A DNA stretch of 6,365 nt from positions 1 through 6,365 of the forward strand of contig JAHQVR010000262.1 in the NCBI GenBank assembly GCA_019634245.1, written 5' to 3'. Numbering within the stretch: position 1 is the stretch's first letter; the number at the start of each line of letters is the position of its first letter. This stretch comes from Gammaproteobacteria bacterium (GTDB lineage Bacteria; Pseudomonadota; Gammaproteobacteria; Granulosicoccales; Granulosicoccaceae). Made by a program: the position numbers and the translations under genes. This document shows positions 1-6,365 of this stretch, piece by piece. Below the pieces are notes generated by a model. It saw only the letters and a list, made by a program, of their open reading frames with translations. It was not told the origin of the DNA and made no database searches.

Positions 1-578
1 CCTGACACATAAAGCGTGCATACTTCTTTTTCAGCGGGTGAGAGTTTGTAGAGTATCCCTATTCTTTCGGTGGATAATGCATGCACAGAATCCGGATCGG
101 TAAGGCTCACCAGAACCTCACCGAGCAAATCCGTTACTTTTCGAAGTGCCTTTCGGGTTGCCGATATTTCCACTATAAGCCGGCTGTTTGAGCAACCGGC
201 CAGACCACCACATAAAAAGGCGTTTATAGACTTTACATCGTCACTATCACTTTTTTGCGCCTCCGCAATGCCCGATTGCACGCTCATTGATAGCTGTCGA
301 TCCTTGAATGTCAGGCAATTCTTCGATGTGATCCCCACGAGAGGACTTCGATCAATAAGCTCTATCGCAGCTTTGTTGGCGTGAACCACGTACCCGCTAC
401 GAGTCACATGGCACAAACCCATACATACCTTATCTAAAGCTGCTAAATAAGCATCGACGAAGGTACTTGGAGCCTCGGTCGATGAGATTGTGTGTTTTCT
501 CCAGAGTCCAGATGAAATCAGAGGTTTTTTGAAACCAGTTAACTGTGCATCTGCAGTGTGTGTAAGGTAAGTATTCAC
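1..578 (-). CDS. LuxR-family transcriptional regulator, N-terminal part (3' end outside window)
   Basis: A minus-strand frame stays open from a GTG at 578 to the window edge (192 codons plus two bases). Residues about 41-92 resemble a PAS-type sensor segment (YLAALDKV...GYVVHANKAAIELI). Residues 155-163 read VLVSLTDPD, a stretch typical of LuxR-family proteins just before the DNA-binding domain. Residues 179-192 (LSPAEKEVCTLYVS) match the first helix of the LuxR C-terminal helix-turn-helix; the recognition helix lies beyond position 1. The GTG is chosen because an in-frame TGA sits two codons upstream (582-584) and the frame has no early ATG. No Shine-Dalgarno sequence stands at normal spacing, so a later start such as the ATG at residue 53 is possible. 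It lies 67 bases downstream of a small secreted repeat protein on the same strand, with a hairpin between them. The sensed signal and target genes are unknown. The family call is firm; the exact start is not. Confidence 0.82.
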   Translation of the reverse strand, partial: MNTYLTHTADAQLTGFKKPLISSGLWRKHTISSTEAPSTFVDAYLAALDKVCMGLCHVTRSGYVVHANKAAIELIDRSPLVGITSKNCLTFKDRQLSMSVQSGIAEAQKSDSDDVKSINAFLCGGLAGCSNSRLIVEISATRKALRKVTDLLGEVLVSLTDPDSVHALSTERIGILYKLSPAEKEVCTLYVS

Positions 579-592
579 GATTCAAGGCGTCT

Positions 593-632
593 AAAACTGA
601 ACTAGCCAAGCACCTCCTGCTACCTGGCTAGT
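593..632 (-). terminator. Hairpin, probable rho-independent terminator
   Basis: A perfect 8-bp inverted repeat (ACTAGCCA at 601-608, TGGCTAGT at 625-632) lies 13 bases after the stop of the secreted repeat-protein gene. A further AGC/GCT pairing is possible inside the stem. Read on the minus strand the stem is followed closely by TTTT (596-593). This fits a modest intrinsic terminator between the repeat-protein gene and the LuxR-type gene. The short T tract means it could also be an attenuator allowing read-through into the regulator. Confidence 0.5.
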
Positions 633-645
633 CATAAGTTCATCA

Positions 646-1056
646 TTACTTGATGACAGCCAGATCAATCTTAGCCTTGTTGTGGTTACCAGAAGCCAAA
701 GCGGTAACGCTATGGGTCAGTACAGTCAAAGTGGCGTTTCCACCCACTCGGCTGTCTTTAACAACGGCCATGTTGATTTTTGCTTTGTTTGAAGAGCCTT
801 CTGCCTTGGCAGTCGCTTCTTGAGCGTATACATAGGCATTTACATTGCCGTGTATGTCGCTGTTATCCACTGTGCTAGCGCGGACGCTACATTTGTTGTT
901 ATCGCCGCCAGCGACACATAACACATTGCGAATCTCAACGGTCAGCGCAGCATCTCCACCGATGTTGCTGCCGTACCCACTACCACCGGCTACCGCGGCT
1001 GTTCCAGTCAAAGCACCAAGGGCGAAAACGGCTGCTGTTAAAAGTTGCTTGCTCAT
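646..1056 (-). CDS. Small secreted protein with three 36-residue curlin-like repeats
   Basis: A short exported protein of unknown exact function. The start is set at the ATG at 1056 because GGAG (1065-1068) lies 8 bases upstream. The ATG at 1062 is only 2 bases from that site but remains an alternative, and residue numbers here count from it. Residues 3-26 form a Sec signal peptide with likely cleavage after AVA (residue 26). After a Gly-rich linker the rest is three tandem repeats: 37-72, 73-108 and 109-138 (the last cut to 30 residues). Shared columns include TV or YV near the start, G-x-x-N-K-[AC] in the middle, and S-x-[IV]-x-G-[ND] across the junctions. G-x-x-N-x-A is also the core of curlin repeats (CsgA/CsgB), and each unit splits into two N-x-[AT]-x-[IL] halves, suggesting a beta-solenoid or amyloid-like fold. 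The usual curlin Gln ladder is absent. Cys49 and Cys58, both in repeat 1, could form a disulfide. No curli export genes are visible here. Secretion is well supported; the amyloid role is inference. Confidence 0.85.
   Translation of the reverse strand: MSKQLLTAAVFALGALTGTAAVAGGSGYGSNIGGDAALTVEIRNVLCVAGGDNNKCSVRASTVDNSDIHGNVNAYVYAQEATAKAEGSSNKAKINMAVVKDSRVGGNATLTVLTHSVTALASGNHNKAKIDLAVIK
649..954 (-). repeat. Three in-frame tandem repeats (108, 108 and 90 bases)
   Basis: The coding sequence of the secreted repeat protein consists of three head-to-tail units at 847-954, 739-846 and 649-738 (minus-strand order). They align without gaps at the protein level over 36, 36 and 30 residues. Units 2 and 3 share the NKAKI core and the AV[VI]K segment. 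Unit 1 is the most diverged and carries both cysteines. The DNA copies differ clearly, so the duplication is old and held by protein-level selection. Confidence 0.8.
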
Positions 1057-1064
1057 TGTCATTA

Positions 1065-1070
1065 CTCCAG
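1065..1070 (-). promoter_or_regulatory. Ribosome binding site deciding the repeat-protein start
   Basis: On the minus strand CTGGAG is followed by TA and ATG at 1062, then by a second ATG at 1056. The gap from GGAG is 2 bases to the first ATG and 8 bases to the second, so the second is the better start. Confidence 0.6.
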
Positions 1071-1349
1071 TATTTGTTAATCAATTAGTTAAAAGTTAAG
1101 AAGGTCTAGAAGTGATCCTGATGGGCCATTTCCCCCTCTTGCCTGGACTAATGCGGTGGAATTCAAAAAGTTTTAATGAAGCCAAAAATATTTTATTTTT
1201 TTTCAAAAGCGCCGTCTCATGCGGCTTCGACCCACCATTTTTATCGAAGAACTAAATCCCAGGTTGCCCGATACGAGCTGCGGGTAGACAGGTGTGAGCT
1301 TACAGAGGCTGAACCAAGGTTAATAAAGAATCGCATTTGTATGCCTTAA

Positions 1350-1365
1350 CTAACCTAACGGTTAG
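1350..1365. repeat. Short inverted repeat CTAACC-N4-GGTTAG
   Basis: Two perfect 6-bp arms flank a TAAC spacer, giving a 16-bp dyad in the divergent intergenic region. It has the size of a dimeric regulator site or a small hairpin. No T tract follows, so it is not a terminator. The binding protein is unknown. Confidence 0.4.
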
Positions 1366-1419
1366 CCTTTGAGCTTCACACTAGACTAAAGATTAATTAT
1401 CACCCTCCCCAGCCATTAA

Positions 1420-1451
1420 TAGAACATCCACAGCCTTAAATATTTGTTCTA
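1420..1451. repeat. Inverted repeat TAGAACA-N18-TGTTCTA
   Basis: Two perfect 7-bp arms (1420-1426 and 1445-1451) are separated by 18 bases, about 170 bases before the caspase-lipoprotein gene. The layout fits a two-site operator or the base of a longer RNA hairpin. It matches no binding site that I recognise. Confidence 0.4.
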
Positions 1452-1618
1452 ATGCAGAATCGGTCGAACGCTTTCATCGTGACGTTTGGCAATTAAAATC
1501 AGCCCCCTTGAGGGTTATTGTTTGGGTGGTTTGCTCGTGTTAGGTTTCATTTCAGATAGTTAACAGCCAACCTTGGGAAATTAACCGCTGAGGCACCAAT
1601 GCAGCAGCACTGACAAAC

Positions 1619-4429
1619 GTGATGAAACGAGCCACCTTATATAGCTTCGCATTATCAGCGGTACTGATCGCATCGGCGTGCAGCACGCCTGAGCGACTGC
1701 CCGCGGATGCGGCATCTTCAGCGGGCCGCGACCCTGATCGATTGCTTGTTGTGGACTGTCTGCTACCGGGACAATTACGTCGTTTGGGTAGAAGTATCAC
1801 TTTCATGACGCCCCGCCGGCCTACCCGAGTCAGTGCCTCTGAGTGTGAAATAAGAGGCGGAGAATATGTATCCTACGACCGAGCCAACTTTGCCACCTCA
1901 CTGAAAGTGTGGCTACCAAAAGCGGAATCTGGAGACCCTGAAGCACAAACTTTTGTCGGGGAAATTTTTGAAAAAGGTCTAGGCCAAGTCGCAGACCCTC
2001 TGATTGCTGCCCAATGGTATACGCGGGCAGCTGACCAAGGTTACTCCCGCGCACTGATAAATTTGGGCTACCTGTATGAAAGTGGGCTCGGGGTAGAACA
2101 GAACATGGTCACCGCGATGAATTACTATCGCCAAGCCGCCGGTTTCACTGACGGTGAATTGGAATACCTCACATCAGTACAGATTGCCAATAGAAAAAAA
2201 CAGGACGCAGAATTGCCTGTGCTTAGAGCCCAGGTAGAGCAAGCCAATGCTCAATTGCAAAGTGAGCAGCAGGCCTTTGCGCAACTACAGGACGAGTACA
2301 GCTCCCTTGAACAAGAGGCTGCGTCCATTCGAACAGAACTATCCCAGCAAAGTTCACGTGGCAGTGCGAGCACTTCATCTGATTCAAATAACTCCGCAGA
2401 AGTAGGCGCTCTTTTAAATGAAATAGAGTCCCTGAAAGACCAATTGGCTGCCTCTGAGTCGGAAAGCTCGGACATTATTGCTGCTCTCGAGCAGCAGCAG
2501 CAGCAAACCAGTGAACTTAGAAAAAAAATGTCAGGAGTTACCAAGCAACTTTACGAAACAGAAGACGAACTGGCGCAACAGACCAAACTCATGGATTCAC
2601 TTGAATCCGAGATTGCGGCCACTAAAAACTCAGGTAATAACGACAATGCGACGCAACTACTCGAACTAGAAGCCAAACTCGCCAACACTGTCCAATCCAG
2701 AGACAATTTGCAGCAGCAGATTGAGCAGCTAGAGGCCCAACAAACTCAGGAATCGTCGCAACTAGAATCAGAGTTGACCGTTGCTGAAGCTCGAGAGACG
2801 TCGCTAATTCTAGATCTTGAAACGAGCAGACAAGCGTTGGCCGAGCTGCAGTCGGCCTTACAAGCCAAAGACGAAGACTATCAAAAACAGATAGCGACTT
2901 TGGGGCGTACTAATACAGGTCTGGAATCTCGCCTGCAGCAGCAACAAAGCAAAATTAGCACCTTGGAAAGTGAGATAGCCGCCGTAGAAGAGAAGAAAAA
3001 CACGGAGAGTGCTGAAAACGAAAGTCAGCTTACGGCTGAAATATCTCGGTTACAGGCCGAGCTCGCGGTAGCACAAGCTGAACTTGAAGTATCCGAACGA
3101 GAACGGGAAGCTGGCGAACAAAGCTCCATTGAAAAATTATCAAGATTGGAACAACAGCTTCAGTCGCGTCGAAGCTTGATCGAAACTCAACAACAGAAAG
3201 TAGAAACACTACAGAAAGAAGTATCCAAGGAGCAAGCGGTTAAGTCAGGGCCCTCTATCGAAGAAATTTCAAGTGTGGTCACCGAAGGCCCTACGATAGA
3301 AATCATCGACCCTGCAGTCAGGGTGAAAAACGGTGCCATGGCAATACCGGTTTACCCCACCCAAAGTGGAGTAGATCTGATAGGCCGCGTGTCCCACCAA
3401 AACGACCTACTTTCATTCCGAATCAATGGCAACCAACAAACCGTCAGCGATAAGGGGATTTTTCAACATACTGCATCTACTACCGATTCCAATAGACTAG
3501 AGCTAGCCGCCGTGGACAGTGCTGGCCTTCGTGCCGCAGTAGAAGTGCAGCTTTATGAGGAAAATTCCAACCCAGACGCCACGCGATCCATTCGCGTGGA
3601 TGTCAGTCAGTTGAATTTTGGTAGCTATCACGCGTTGGTGATTGGCAATAGTAAGTATCAACAGATGCCCACCATCGATACAGCCGTATCTGATGCCACA
3701 GCTATAGCTAAGATTCTGGAACAGCAATATGGGTTTCAAGCTGAACTGCTGGTGGATGCAGACCGGTACGATATTCTGGCTGCTCTAAACAGAAAACGCG
3801 ATGAGTTAACACGTAACGACAATCTGCTGATCTATTACTCCGGCCATGGCGAAATTGGCAGAGGCAAGGGGTATTGGTTGCCAACCGATGCCGACCCGGC
3901 GGATAAAAACTCTTGGGTGTCGAACGCCTCGGTTACATCGATTATCGACTCCATGTCAGCAAAACACGTCATCGTAGTGGCAGATTCTGTGTTTTCAGGT
4001 ACGTTGTCAAGATCGTCACTGGTTAGAATCAGCGATGATATGGATGCTGATGAGCGGCTGCGATTCTACGACCTAGTCGCGCAATCTAAAGTTCGAACCG
4101 TATTGACCTCTGGTGCAACTCGCCCGTTTGTGGACAGCCTGCAGAATAGCGATCATTCAGTGTTTGGTTCCAGTTTTCTCCAAGCACTCTCGTCGTCAGA
4201 TGATGAAGTAATTATGGCGCACGATCTTTTCATCAAAATTCGAAACTCATTAAGTTCGGTATCGCTCCCTTCCGATCAAGCAGCGCTCCCTCAATATGCA
4301 CCACTGCGCTATGCCGGCCATGAAAATGGCGAGTTTCTATTTATTCCGTTAGATCGCCAGGTGGGCCGAAGCGATGTGGTTGAGTCTTACCTTTCGACCG
4401 ACGCCGAACCTGATGTATCCATTCATTAA
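1619..4429 (+). CDS. Lipoprotein with Sel1 repeats, long coiled coil and C-terminal pseudocaspase (C14-like) domain
   Basis: A 936-residue envelope protein. Residues 1-20 are a lipoprotein-type signal peptide with a relaxed lipobox (ASA-Cys21). Residues 44-100 carry a motif-rich segment (VDCLLPGQLRRLG, CEIRGGEYVSYDRAN) that seems typical of this protein type. Residues 106-175 hold two Sel1 repeats (EKGLG..., ESGLGV...). Residues about 190-540 are Gln/Glu-rich coiled coil. Residues about 557-647 look like a small beta-sandwich. Residues 667-910 form a caspase-like domain: HALVIGNSKY (671-680), catalytic His743 in YYSGHGE, YWLPTDADP (752-760), then DSVFSG (789-794). The usual nucleophile Cys is Val791, so proteolysis is unlikely and the domain is probably a pseudocaspase. 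Sel1 repeats and coiled coil suggest a scaffold anchored to a membrane. The start is uncertain: GTG at 1619 is directly followed by ATG at 1622, and neither has a clear ribosome binding site. An in-frame TGA at 1589 rules out starts further upstream. It is first in a likely operon with the beta-barrel gene 62 bases on. Confidence 0.9.
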   Translation: MMKRATLYSFALSAVLIASACSTPERLPADAASSAGRDPDRLLVVDCLLPGQLRRLGRSITFMTPRRPTRVSASECEIRGGEYVSYDRANFATSLKVWLPKAESGDPEAQTFVGEIFEKGLGQVADPLIAAQWYTRAADQGYSRALINLGYLYESGLGVEQNMVTAMNYYRQAAGFTDGELEYLTSVQIANRKKQDAELPVLRAQVEQANAQLQSEQQAFAQLQDEYSSLEQEAASIRTELSQQSSRGSASTSSDSNNSAEVGALLNEIESLKDQLAASESESSDIIAALEQQQQQTSELRKKMSGVTKQLYETEDELAQQTKLMDSLESEIAATKNSGNNDNATQLLELEAKLANTVQSRDNLQQQIEQLEAQQTQESSQLESELTVAEARETSLILDLETSRQALAELQSALQAKDEDYQKQIATLGRTNTGLESRLQQQQSKISTLESEIAAVEEKKNTESAENESQLTAEISRLQAELAVAQAELEVSEREREAGEQSSIEKLSRLEQQLQSRRSLIETQQQKVETLQKEVSKEQAVKSGPSIEEISSVVTEGPTIEIIDPAVRVKNGAMAIPVYPTQSGVDLIGRVSHQNDLLSFRINGNQQTVSDKGIFQHTASTTDSNRLELAAVDSAGLRAAVEVQLYEENSNPDATRSIRVDVSQLNFGSYHALVIGNSKYQQMPTIDTAVSDATAIAKILEQQYGFQAELLVDADRYDILAALNRKRDELTRNDNLLIYYSGHGEIGRGKGYWLPTDADPADKNSWVSNASVTSIIDSMSAKHVIVVADSVFSGTLSRSSLVRISDDMDADERLRFYDLVAQSKVRTVLTSGATRPFVDSLQNSDHSVFGSSFLQALSSSDDEVIMAHDLFIKIRNSLSSVSLPSDQAALPQYAPLRYAGHENGEFLFIPLDRQVGRSDVVESYLSTDAEPDVSIH
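2492..2506 (+). repeat. Short CAG run inside the coiled coil
   Basis: Four CAG codons and one CAA encode Gln292-296. It is the longest single-codon run in the window and may be prone to slippage, though five units are few. It fits the general Gln richness of the coiled coil. Confidence 0.5.
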
Positions 4430-4491
4430 CCATGTATTCAGTTAAAACTGAGCGCAAACGTTCAAACCACTACAGGGAAGCTTTTTAAACC

Positions 4492-5985
4492 ATGATGAAA
4501 CTCAGCACCAAGTCGAAACTCAGCAATTTTAGACCATTTAAAACCAGCCTCTGTGTTGCTGGTGCTTGGTTCCTCTGCATGCCTGCTGTTCAAGCCTATG
4601 ACCCTACTACTACACTGGGAAGCGTAGATGGCTTAACTGAACAACAACAAAGAACCGGTGATGCTATTCAATCGGTCTGCGGACAGTTTCTAGCGACAGG
4701 AGCCGCCAATGGCGAGTTCGACACAACGCGAGAAGATGTCGCCCAGCAGCAAGCGCTCTTCGATGCCTGTGGTGAAATGGTGCACACAGCGAATTCACTC
4801 GCCGGCAACGACGGACCAACGGCTAAAGATCTAGGCATTAATGAACAACAACTAGCTGCTGCGTTACAAAACGTAGCCGCCGAAGAAGTCGCTGCCGCTG
4901 GTAGTTTGGCCACCGAATCGGTCGCTGGACAATCTAACATCGTCGGACGCCGTCTGGCAGGTATCCTGTCTCGCGCTTCCACACTTCAAGTGAGTAGTGC
5001 GAATATTCAAGGCAGCAACTCTATTATCCTCGCTTCTCTTCCTGAAGAATTTGCACTGGCAGAATCGGGTGGAGCAGCTGCAGCGGACGATCCTGGCTTG
5101 TCCAGTCCTCTAGGCTTTTATATTAACGCTTTGGGTGCTTCAGCCCGCAAAACCGGCACTGAGCGCGAAGATGGTTTCAGCTCTGATACGGGTGGCATAT
5201 CTCTTGGAATTGATTACCTGTTTACCAACAGCTTTTTGGCGGGTATCAATTTAGGCTTTTCAAGTTCAGTCACTGACTTTACGATCACCGACAACGTCTC
5301 AGGTGGCAGCATGGATGCCACACAAACCAATGTGTCCGCCTATGGCATGTGGTTCAACGATGTGGGATACATAGATGTGGTCGCAGGCTTTGGTGCGGGT
5401 AGCTATGATATGGATCGGCGCATCATAGTGCCTTCTGCAGACGACGCCGCTGAAGGCAATGATGGAGCGAATGCCACCGTGACTGGCAACACCGACAGTA
5501 CAGCTGGCCGCATTAGTCTCGGTGGCGGGATGGAAATTCGATCGGGTGCATTGAGCTTTGCGCCCTACGGTCGAGTGTCTTATCTAGGAGTAGCGATGGA
5601 CGGATACGAAGAAGAGGGAGAATCGGCCTTGAAACTGCGCGTAGAATCTCAAGACATCGACTCGCTAACCACCGGGTTCGGATTTCGCCTGGTAGGCACC
5701 TACAGTGGTACCAAGGCCATCGTATCACCTCAGTTTAACGTTGAAATGATCCACGAATTTTTGGACGACAGCCGACAGATCGTATCCACCTATGTTCACG
5801 ATCCTCGCAACATTCCATTGGTCATTGTCACTGACAACCCCGACCGCACCTACTACACCATGGGTATTGGCGCATCGGCGGTGTTTACTAATGGACTACA
5901 GCTGTTTGGCGAAGTTCGTTCACTAATGGACCTGGATGACCTCAACGAATTCTCAACGACCGCTGGGCTTAGATTCGCTTTTTAG
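4492..5985 (+). CDS. Autotransporter-type outer-membrane beta-barrel protein with short N-terminal region
   Basis: A 497-residue outer-membrane protein. Residues 1-35 are a long Sec signal peptide ending AVQA. Residues 36-170 are mostly helical and Ala/Gln-rich, with Cys63 and Cys93 (SVCGQF, DACGEMV) as a possible disulfide pair, then a conserved-looking LGINEQQLAAALQNVAAEE stretch. Residues about 207-497 (some 290 residues) alternate polar and hydrophobic residues with many Gly and aromatics, and the protein ends RFAF with a terminal Phe, the usual outer-membrane insertion signal. Length and pattern fit the autotransporter beta-domain, normally a 12-strand barrel. There is no long passenger, so this is not a classical autotransporter; it may be an anchor, a pore or a translocation partner. 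Two adjacent ATGs (4492, 4495) compete. AGGGAAG at 4474-4480 lies 11 bases before the first, a little far. It sits between two caspase-family genes, which suggests a shared role. The barrel call is strong; the function is unknown. Confidence 0.88.
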   Translation: MMKLSTKSKLSNFRPFKTSLCVAGAWFLCMPAVQAYDPTTTLGSVDGLTEQQQRTGDAIQSVCGQFLATGAANGEFDTTREDVAQQQALFDACGEMVHTANSLAGNDGPTAKDLGINEQQLAAALQNVAAEEVAAAGSLATESVAGQSNIVGRRLAGILSRASTLQVSSANIQGSNSIILASLPEEFALAESGGAAAADDPGLSSPLGFYINALGASARKTGTEREDGFSSDTGGISLGIDYLFTNSFLAGINLGFSSSVTDFTITDNVSGGSMDATQTNVSAYGMWFNDVGYIDVVAGFGAGSYDMDRRIIVPSADDAAEGNDGANATVTGNTDSTAGRISLGGGMEIRSGALSFAPYGRVSYLGVAMDGYEEEGESALKLRVESQDIDSLTTGFGFRLVGTYSGTKAIVSPQFNVEMIHEFLDDSRQIVSTYVHDPRNIPLVIVTDNPDRTYYTMGIGASAVFTNGLQLFGEVRSLMDLDDLNEFSTTAGLRFAF

Positions 5986-6006
5986 CGATTTATTGCCGGT
6001 TATAAA

Positions 6007-6365
6007 ATGAATCAGTTTGGTCTACTGTTATCGGCACTGACGATTTTGTTAGTGCCGATTTGCACGGTGGCCTCAGACGATTCAGACTCCAAAAGTGACA
6101 GTCGTGGGGTACACCGCACCATGCTCAAAGCTGTCACAGGAGACAGTAATGAGCCTTTATCGCTCTACCGAGAAAGTCACGCGTTGCTGGTCGGAGCAAG
6201 CCGTTACTCCGCCTGGCCGCAACTAAACAGTATTCCCGGTGAACTCGACTCTGTGGAAGAAGTTCTAACGAAAACAGGTTTCAATGTGGAACGACTGGCA
6301 GACCCAGACGCCGATCAATTGAAAACTGGCATCACCAACTTTATTAACAATTATGGCTACGAGCC
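6007..6365 (+). CDS. Secreted caspase-family (peptidase C14) protein, N-terminal part (3' end outside window)
   Basis: The frame is open from ATG 6007 to the window end (119 codons plus two bases). Residues 1-22 are a Sec signal peptide, with likely cleavage after TVA before Ser23. A Cys at 19 lacks a lipobox, so it is probably not a lipoprotein. Residues 23-55 are a polar linker. From residue 58 the start of a caspase fold is visible: HALLVGASRYSAWPQL (58-73), then GELDSVEEVLTKTGFNVERLADPD (78-101) and FINNYGY (112-118), which in this family comes just before the strand carrying the SGHG or AGHG catalytic His. The His and Cys positions lie beyond the window, so activity cannot be judged. It starts 21 bases after the beta-barrel gene with no terminator between, so it is probably co-transcribed. 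No strong ribosome binding site is seen, which suggests translation coupled to the upstream gene. Proteins with this N-terminus often carry extra C-terminal domains. Confidence 0.82.
   Translation, partial: MNQFGLLLSALTILLVPICTVASDDSDSKSDSRGVHRTMLKAVTGDSNEPLSLYRESHALLVGASRYSAWPQLNSIPGELDSVEEVLTKTGFNVERLADPDADQLKTGITNFINNYGYE

Follow-up and report, generated by a model that had tools for sequence, protein, structure and literature searches.

Can a bacterial caspase that has lost its catalytic cysteine be kept as a protein in its own right? This question is raised by a stretch of 6,365 nucleotides from a Gammaproteobacteria bacterium of the Granulosicoccaceae (assembly GCA_019634245.1, contig JAHQVR010000262.1, positions 1 to 6,365 of the forward strand), hereafter the window. 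The open frame 1619-4429 (+) of the window encodes CasA, a protein of 936 residues with a caspase (Peptidase_C14) domain in which Val791 stands where the catalytic Cys is expected. The loss of the Cys is common to a whole clade and is not a lone variant: Val or Ile is found at this position in 9/9 members, i.e. the window protein and its eight closest relatives among the matches listed.

A caspase domain without its catalytic cysteine

The window DNA reads TCT GTG TTT TCA GGT from position 3986, which places Val791 within ADSVFSG. The parts of CasA are given below, where A1 denotes an alignment of 15 proteins, namely the nine members of the clade (hereafter the pseudo members) and their six nearest Cys-bearing relatives.

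1619-4429, + strand: CasA, predicted lipoprotein with Sel1 repeats, coiled coil, beta-sandwich and pseudo-caspase domain (lipoprotein assignment by eye)
1679-1681, + strand: Cys21, likely lipobox (IASAC) cysteine (from the sequence, by eye)
1724-2188, + strand: conserved N-terminal segment with two Sel1 repeats, residues 36-190
3281-3583, + strand: predicted beta-sandwich, residues 555-655 (strands in the AlphaFold2 (AF2) model)
3596-4354, + strand: caspase (Peptidase_C14) fold domain, residues 660-912 (Pfam match, AF2 model)
3692-3694, + strand: Asp692, invariant in A1
3845-3847, + strand: His743, catalytic-type His, retained in the window (codon CAT)
3983-3985, + strand: Asp789, invariant in A1, two residues ahead of the nucleophile position
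3989-3991, + strand: Val791 at the position of the expected catalytic Cys (codon GTG)

Taken by itself, the caspase domain matches Peptidase_C14 of Pfam with an E-value of 3.4e-18; PF00656 is not listed at E ≤ 0.1 when the whole protein of 936 residues is scanned against Pfam. The AF2 model of the window protein (predicted local distance difference test 87.5, predicted template modelling score 0.85) retains the caspase fold, and its best structural match is MALT1. CasA therefore has the fold of peptidase C14 and, in the window, the catalytic His, and lacks the Cys of an active member; with a substituted His-Cys dyad within the p20 domain, it is a pseudo-orthocaspase. A preliminary description of this DNA had already pointed out the Val at the C14 nucleophile position and the retention of His743 within SGHG, and both are borne out here. 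By a comparison without alignment with the residues named for TbMC2 in a published passage, Asp692 and Asp789 may be pocket acids, Asp692 being the candidate S1-pocket acid. The likely lipobox Cys21 is found in 8/9 pseudo members, the remaining one (P0002) beginning downstream of it. The beta-sandwich (residues 555-655) has no Pfam match and may be Ig-like.

Extent and origin of the substitution

To place the substitution among relatives, CasA was aligned with the best 120 of its 1123 database matches (121 rows); the database is one of predicted proteins, from which broken copies would be missing. The nucleophile column holds Cys in 111 rows, Val in 8 and Ile in 2, and the catalytic His column holds His in 120 rows and Arg in one. 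The ten rows without Cys are the window, P0001, P0002, P0003 and P0005-P0009, plus P0004. In a tree of 99 rows from which the active-site columns had been removed, the window protein and its eight relatives form one clade (support 100/100), joined at 94/82 by a sister group of six Cys-bearing proteins. When the N-terminal part is included, in another tree (37 rows), the same clade (100/100) and the same sister (98/93) are recovered. One of these Cys-bearing sisters sits on an uncultured Granulosicoccaceae contig, and P0003, a pseudo member, is labelled Granulosicoccus sp.

Val also occurs outside the clade, in the first domain of P0004 and in locus L044, on an uncultured Cocleimonas contig. 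Parsimony on the 99-row tree requires three changes. That the Val of L044 goes back to the same event as the substitution in the nine proteins is rejected by the approximately unbiased test when the N-terminal part is included (p = 0.02), yet not on the caspase domain alone (p = 0.29); the tested group was picked after inspection of the first tree, and the L044 branch is long. A Cys-to-Val change in L044 separate from that of the nine-protein clade is thus moderately supported by sequence comparison. P0004 has another architecture: this chain of 595 residues, on a contig of 1852 bases, carries two caspase domains, one with DSVYSG and one with DSCFS, and stops shortly after the second motif.

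We also scanned genome contigs and retrieved 57 loci, all of which except L039 and L057 contain the CasA domain. Of these 55, 54 are readable at the nucleophile column: 53 have Cys and one, L044, has Val. The CasA genes of these loci are Sel1-coiled-coil orthocaspase genes (L001-L056). Family and gene-order searches both led to one set of 48 genomes, with Cys in 22/22 readable matches (loci L058-L088, some overlapping). No member of the nine-protein clade was found by the contig scan or by these searches.

State of the caspase domain in the clade

In none of the nine pseudo members is there a Cys inside the caspase domain; P0008 has one past it. No alternative Cys is thus offered within the domain, the close homologues carry Val or Ile, and the modelled fold is kept, which supports the kept pseudoenzyme proposed in the preliminary description. 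Its description of the remaining domain as intact is right for the His and SGHG of the window and not for the clade, in which His743 is replaced by Arg in P0007, Gly744 by Ser in three members, Ser793 and Gly794 are substituted in several, and the whole domain evolves faster. Moreover, the segment TSGATRPFVD cannot be called unchanged: the six Cys-bearing proteins of A1 have TSGG or SSGG at this place, and Gly833 is altered in 9/9 pseudo members.

From the 162 columns that are invariant in the six Cys-bearing sisters, 66 are retained in all nine pseudo members, 28 are altered in every one and 68 in some of them. The motif GHENGEF, close to the C-terminus, is invariant in 9/9 pseudo members. 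Mean pairwise identity in the N-terminal/Sel1 part is 0.82 within the pseudo set and 0.83 within the Cys set; in the caspase domain, it is 0.60 and 0.80, respectively. Mean branch depths (pseudo/Cys, excluding P0002, which has no N-terminus) are 0.19/0.14 for the N-terminal part, 0.89/0.41 for the beta-sandwich and 0.48/0.18 for the caspase domain. A concentration of the erosion at the active site is not significant (8 columns kept and 22 changed in the active-site windows vs. 58 and 74 elsewhere in the domain; Fisher test, p = 0.10).

A second caspase gene at the locus

Downstream of CasA, the window contains two further genes on the same strand:

4492-5985, + strand: autotransporter beta-barrel protein of 497 residues, starting 62 nucleotides past CasA (PF03797, E = 4e-47)
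6007-6365, + strand: first part of CasB, another caspase protein, 21 nucleotides past the barrel gene, ending at the window edge before the active site

The barrel gene product has the autotransporter beta-domain. The CasB fragment matches PF00656 with an E-value of 5e-4 and 20.3 bits, below the cut-off of 21.4, and is 59% identical to residues 45-128 of the CasB of locus L001. In L001, the genes are complete and follow the same order: a Cys-type CasA, a barrel gene and a CasB of 620 residues with a DSCFSG motif and a sulfatase-modifying-factor domain. Among CasB proteins, the Cys and the His are retained in 121/121 rows (query plus the best 120 of 3210 matches). The preliminary description had remarked that pseudocaspases next to an active relative often act as regulators. 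The other caspase gene follows CasA at a distance of two genes in the window, where it ends before its active site, and in L001, where it has Cys and His but accompanies a Cys-type CasA.

Among the matches listed, CasB can be tied by equal size of the longest contig to four of the eight pseudo relatives (P0002, P0003, P0005 and P0009), and likewise to the Cys-bearing sisters P0013, P0018 and P0020, P0018 being confirmed by the DNA of L001. Equal contig size also links the barrel to five pseudo relatives out of eight (P0001, P0002, P0003, P0006 and P0009), and P0007 and P0008 have neither tie among the matches listed. On the seven contigs tied to CasB, the identity of the CasB caspase domain is 0.77 in pseudo lineages vs. 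0.83 in Cys lineages, and that of the CasA caspase domain is 0.59 vs. 0.77.

What CasA may do

We consider it fairly probable that CasA is a non-proteolytic, membrane-anchored binding subunit of the cell envelope, and that the protease role at the locus lies with CasB. The ancestor of CasA would have been a lipoprotein-type chain that carried an orthocaspase with Cys and His; in one lineage, the Cys would have been swapped for Val or Ile. CasA would then have been kept for partner binding in the envelope, by its Sel1, coiled-coil and caspase-fold parts, and not for cutting; CasB, two genes downstream with the autotransporter barrel in between, would be the protease. We infer accordingly a CasA without proteolysis and an active protein from the CasB gene that the window holds as a fragment. 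Three points weigh against this proposal. The caspase and beta-sandwich domains diverge faster in the pseudo clade, and the work of the domain may be partly lost. The open frames of the relatives are partly built into a database that lists predicted proteins only, and they count for less on that account. Finally, the linkage of CasB within the clade consists of equal contig sizes for four of eight relatives, and the CasB of the window ends before its active site.

Two alternatives are more specific forms of this binding-subunit proposal, and the data do not separate them. According to the first, CasA acts like FLIP, its pseudo-domain pairing directly with the caspase domain of CasB and switching it on or off, as the preliminary description had suggested. 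This is possible but rather doubtful: the two domains are only ~27% identical, and CasA is linked more widely to the barrel gene than to CasB. In addition, a Cys-bearing CasA also stands beside CasB in L001, so that a dead CasA is not required for the pair, and the pseudo-CasA of L044 has no CasB among the open reading frames (ORFs) of at least 120 residues in its locus of 9670 bases.

According to the second, which we hold to be about equally doubtful, CasA acts in the periplasm as a scaffold for the barrel only, and CasB is nearby by chance. Of the 55 loci, 36 have a barrel match no more than 4 kb from CasA and 5 have one farther away (0.95 vs. 0.14 matches per 10 kb); these loci include kin and are hence not independent. 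In L044 (381-8535), the ORF of an autotransporter of 1004 residues starts 2 nucleotides after the pseudo-CasA, which has DSVYSG. In genome G020, which has a contig of 7.78 Mb, a Cys-bearing CasA is preceded in divergent orientation by a barrel relative with 60% identity (contig 1, 4755494-4762851), and there is no CasB match at E ≤ 1e-80. However, 19 of the 55 loci have no barrel match within 4 kb, several of them with little DNA on one side, and 53 of the 54 readable CasA of these loci keep the Cys; the link with the barrel does not account for the loss of the Cys.

A further elaboration combines both partners: CasA would sense or dock by its Sel1 repeats and coiled coil and directly control an exported CasB, the barrel being a target or an anchor. 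Such an envelope pair of a dead and a live caspase is, in our estimation, rather unlikely in this full form. If true, it would be a bacterial envelope version of the dead-caspase/live-caspase pair.

It is slightly less probable still that CasA is a relaxed leftover, CasB having taken over while the caspase domain drifts and the Sel1 part is kept. The faster evolution of the caspase domain and beta-sandwich is in line with such a drift, as is the fact that some members have lost His, GHG and SG residues. Against it, the identity of the domain is still 0.60, the 66 columns and GHENGEF are kept in all nine proteins, and the changes are not significantly focused on the active site. That another nucleophile, such as Ser790 or Thr795, keeps CasA a protease is very improbable: Ser790, Thr795 and Ser797 do not vary across A1, but they are just as constant in its Cys-bearing set and therefore did not arise as replacements; moreover, P0007 has no His743. 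A sequencing or assembly error behind Val791 can practically be dismissed, for although the window appears to be a single contig, Val or Ile occurs in eight more proteins, on contigs of other sizes.

Kinases in the wider gene context

A Ser/Thr kinase gene lies within 4 kb of CasA in 32 of the 55 loci and farther away in 2 (0.90 vs. 0.05 per 10 kb), several of these loci having little DNA on one side. In L044, TagF-, PP2C- and kinase-type genes are found upstream of the pseudo-CasA. No such kinase was found near CasA in L001 or among the ORFs of the window with a family match. The wider association of such caspases with autotransporter barrels and with Ser/Thr kinases indicates concretely where their targets might be sought.

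Relation to known systems

Pseudo-orthocaspases are already known; the His-Val/Ile lineage with a live-type partner is a new form of them. According to passages of one survey, 858 of 9994 orthocaspases of bacteria are pseudo-orthocaspases; Alphaproteobacteria and Cyanobacteria account for 90% of these, and the dyads include YS, YA, FS, QC, HA, YN, YG and HG (PMC6426788). In passages of an earlier survey, the dyad is kept in 84% of bacterial metacaspases (PMC3501461). Like the proteins described in those passages of PMC6426788, which occur in several lineages, CasA has a p20 caspase fold with a substituted His-Cys dyad and is presumed inactive; unlike them, it has a His-Val/Ile dyad, belongs to a Granulosicoccus-type clade and has a second caspase gene adjacent. 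The words 'Valine', 'Val' and 'Ile' are absent from the main text of PMC6426788, and no Val dyad appears in the passages and term counts of that paper or in the passages of PMC3501461. SyOC of Synechocystis, a pseudo-orthocaspase with an effect in vivo, is a bacterial protein like CasA; according to the abstract, its deletion raised oxidative-stress tolerance, and unlike CasA it is cyanobacterial and no caspase partner is named there (PMC7889975). The dyad given for Synechocystis PCC 6803 in the passages of PMC6426788 is Tyr-Gly.

Among the open-access papers listed in literature searches, no title or abstract opening names a CasA-barrel-CasB locus. At the same level of titles and abstract openings, we found no paper on an orthocaspase with an autotransporter, and a search for metacaspase with autotransporter yields none on such a pair.

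MALT1, the best structural match, is an active eukaryotic protease, whereas CasA, which lacks the Cys, is bacterial and of lipoprotein type. In c-FLIP and caspase-8, a dead caspase-fold partner stands beside a live caspase; for CasA and CasB, the parallel consists of gene linkage and a similar fold. The roles of bacterial pseudo-orthocaspases are, in our judgement, little understood. Since comparable loci here contain a dead copy, sisters that still have the Cys and another caspase gene, what follows from the Cys loss lends itself to direct comparison.

Other features of the window

As the longest contig listed for the barrel protein also measures 6365 bases, the window seems to be a complete contig. 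Upstream of CasA, it has two divergent minus-strand ORFs, 3-578 and 646-1062, the first of which runs off the window; neither has a Pfam or NCBIfam match. PADLOC returned only a weak generic caspase match. A promoter scan gave 2 sites, vs. 5.1 in shuffled sequences, and none directly ahead of CasA. A terminator-like stem overlaps the end of the barrel gene.
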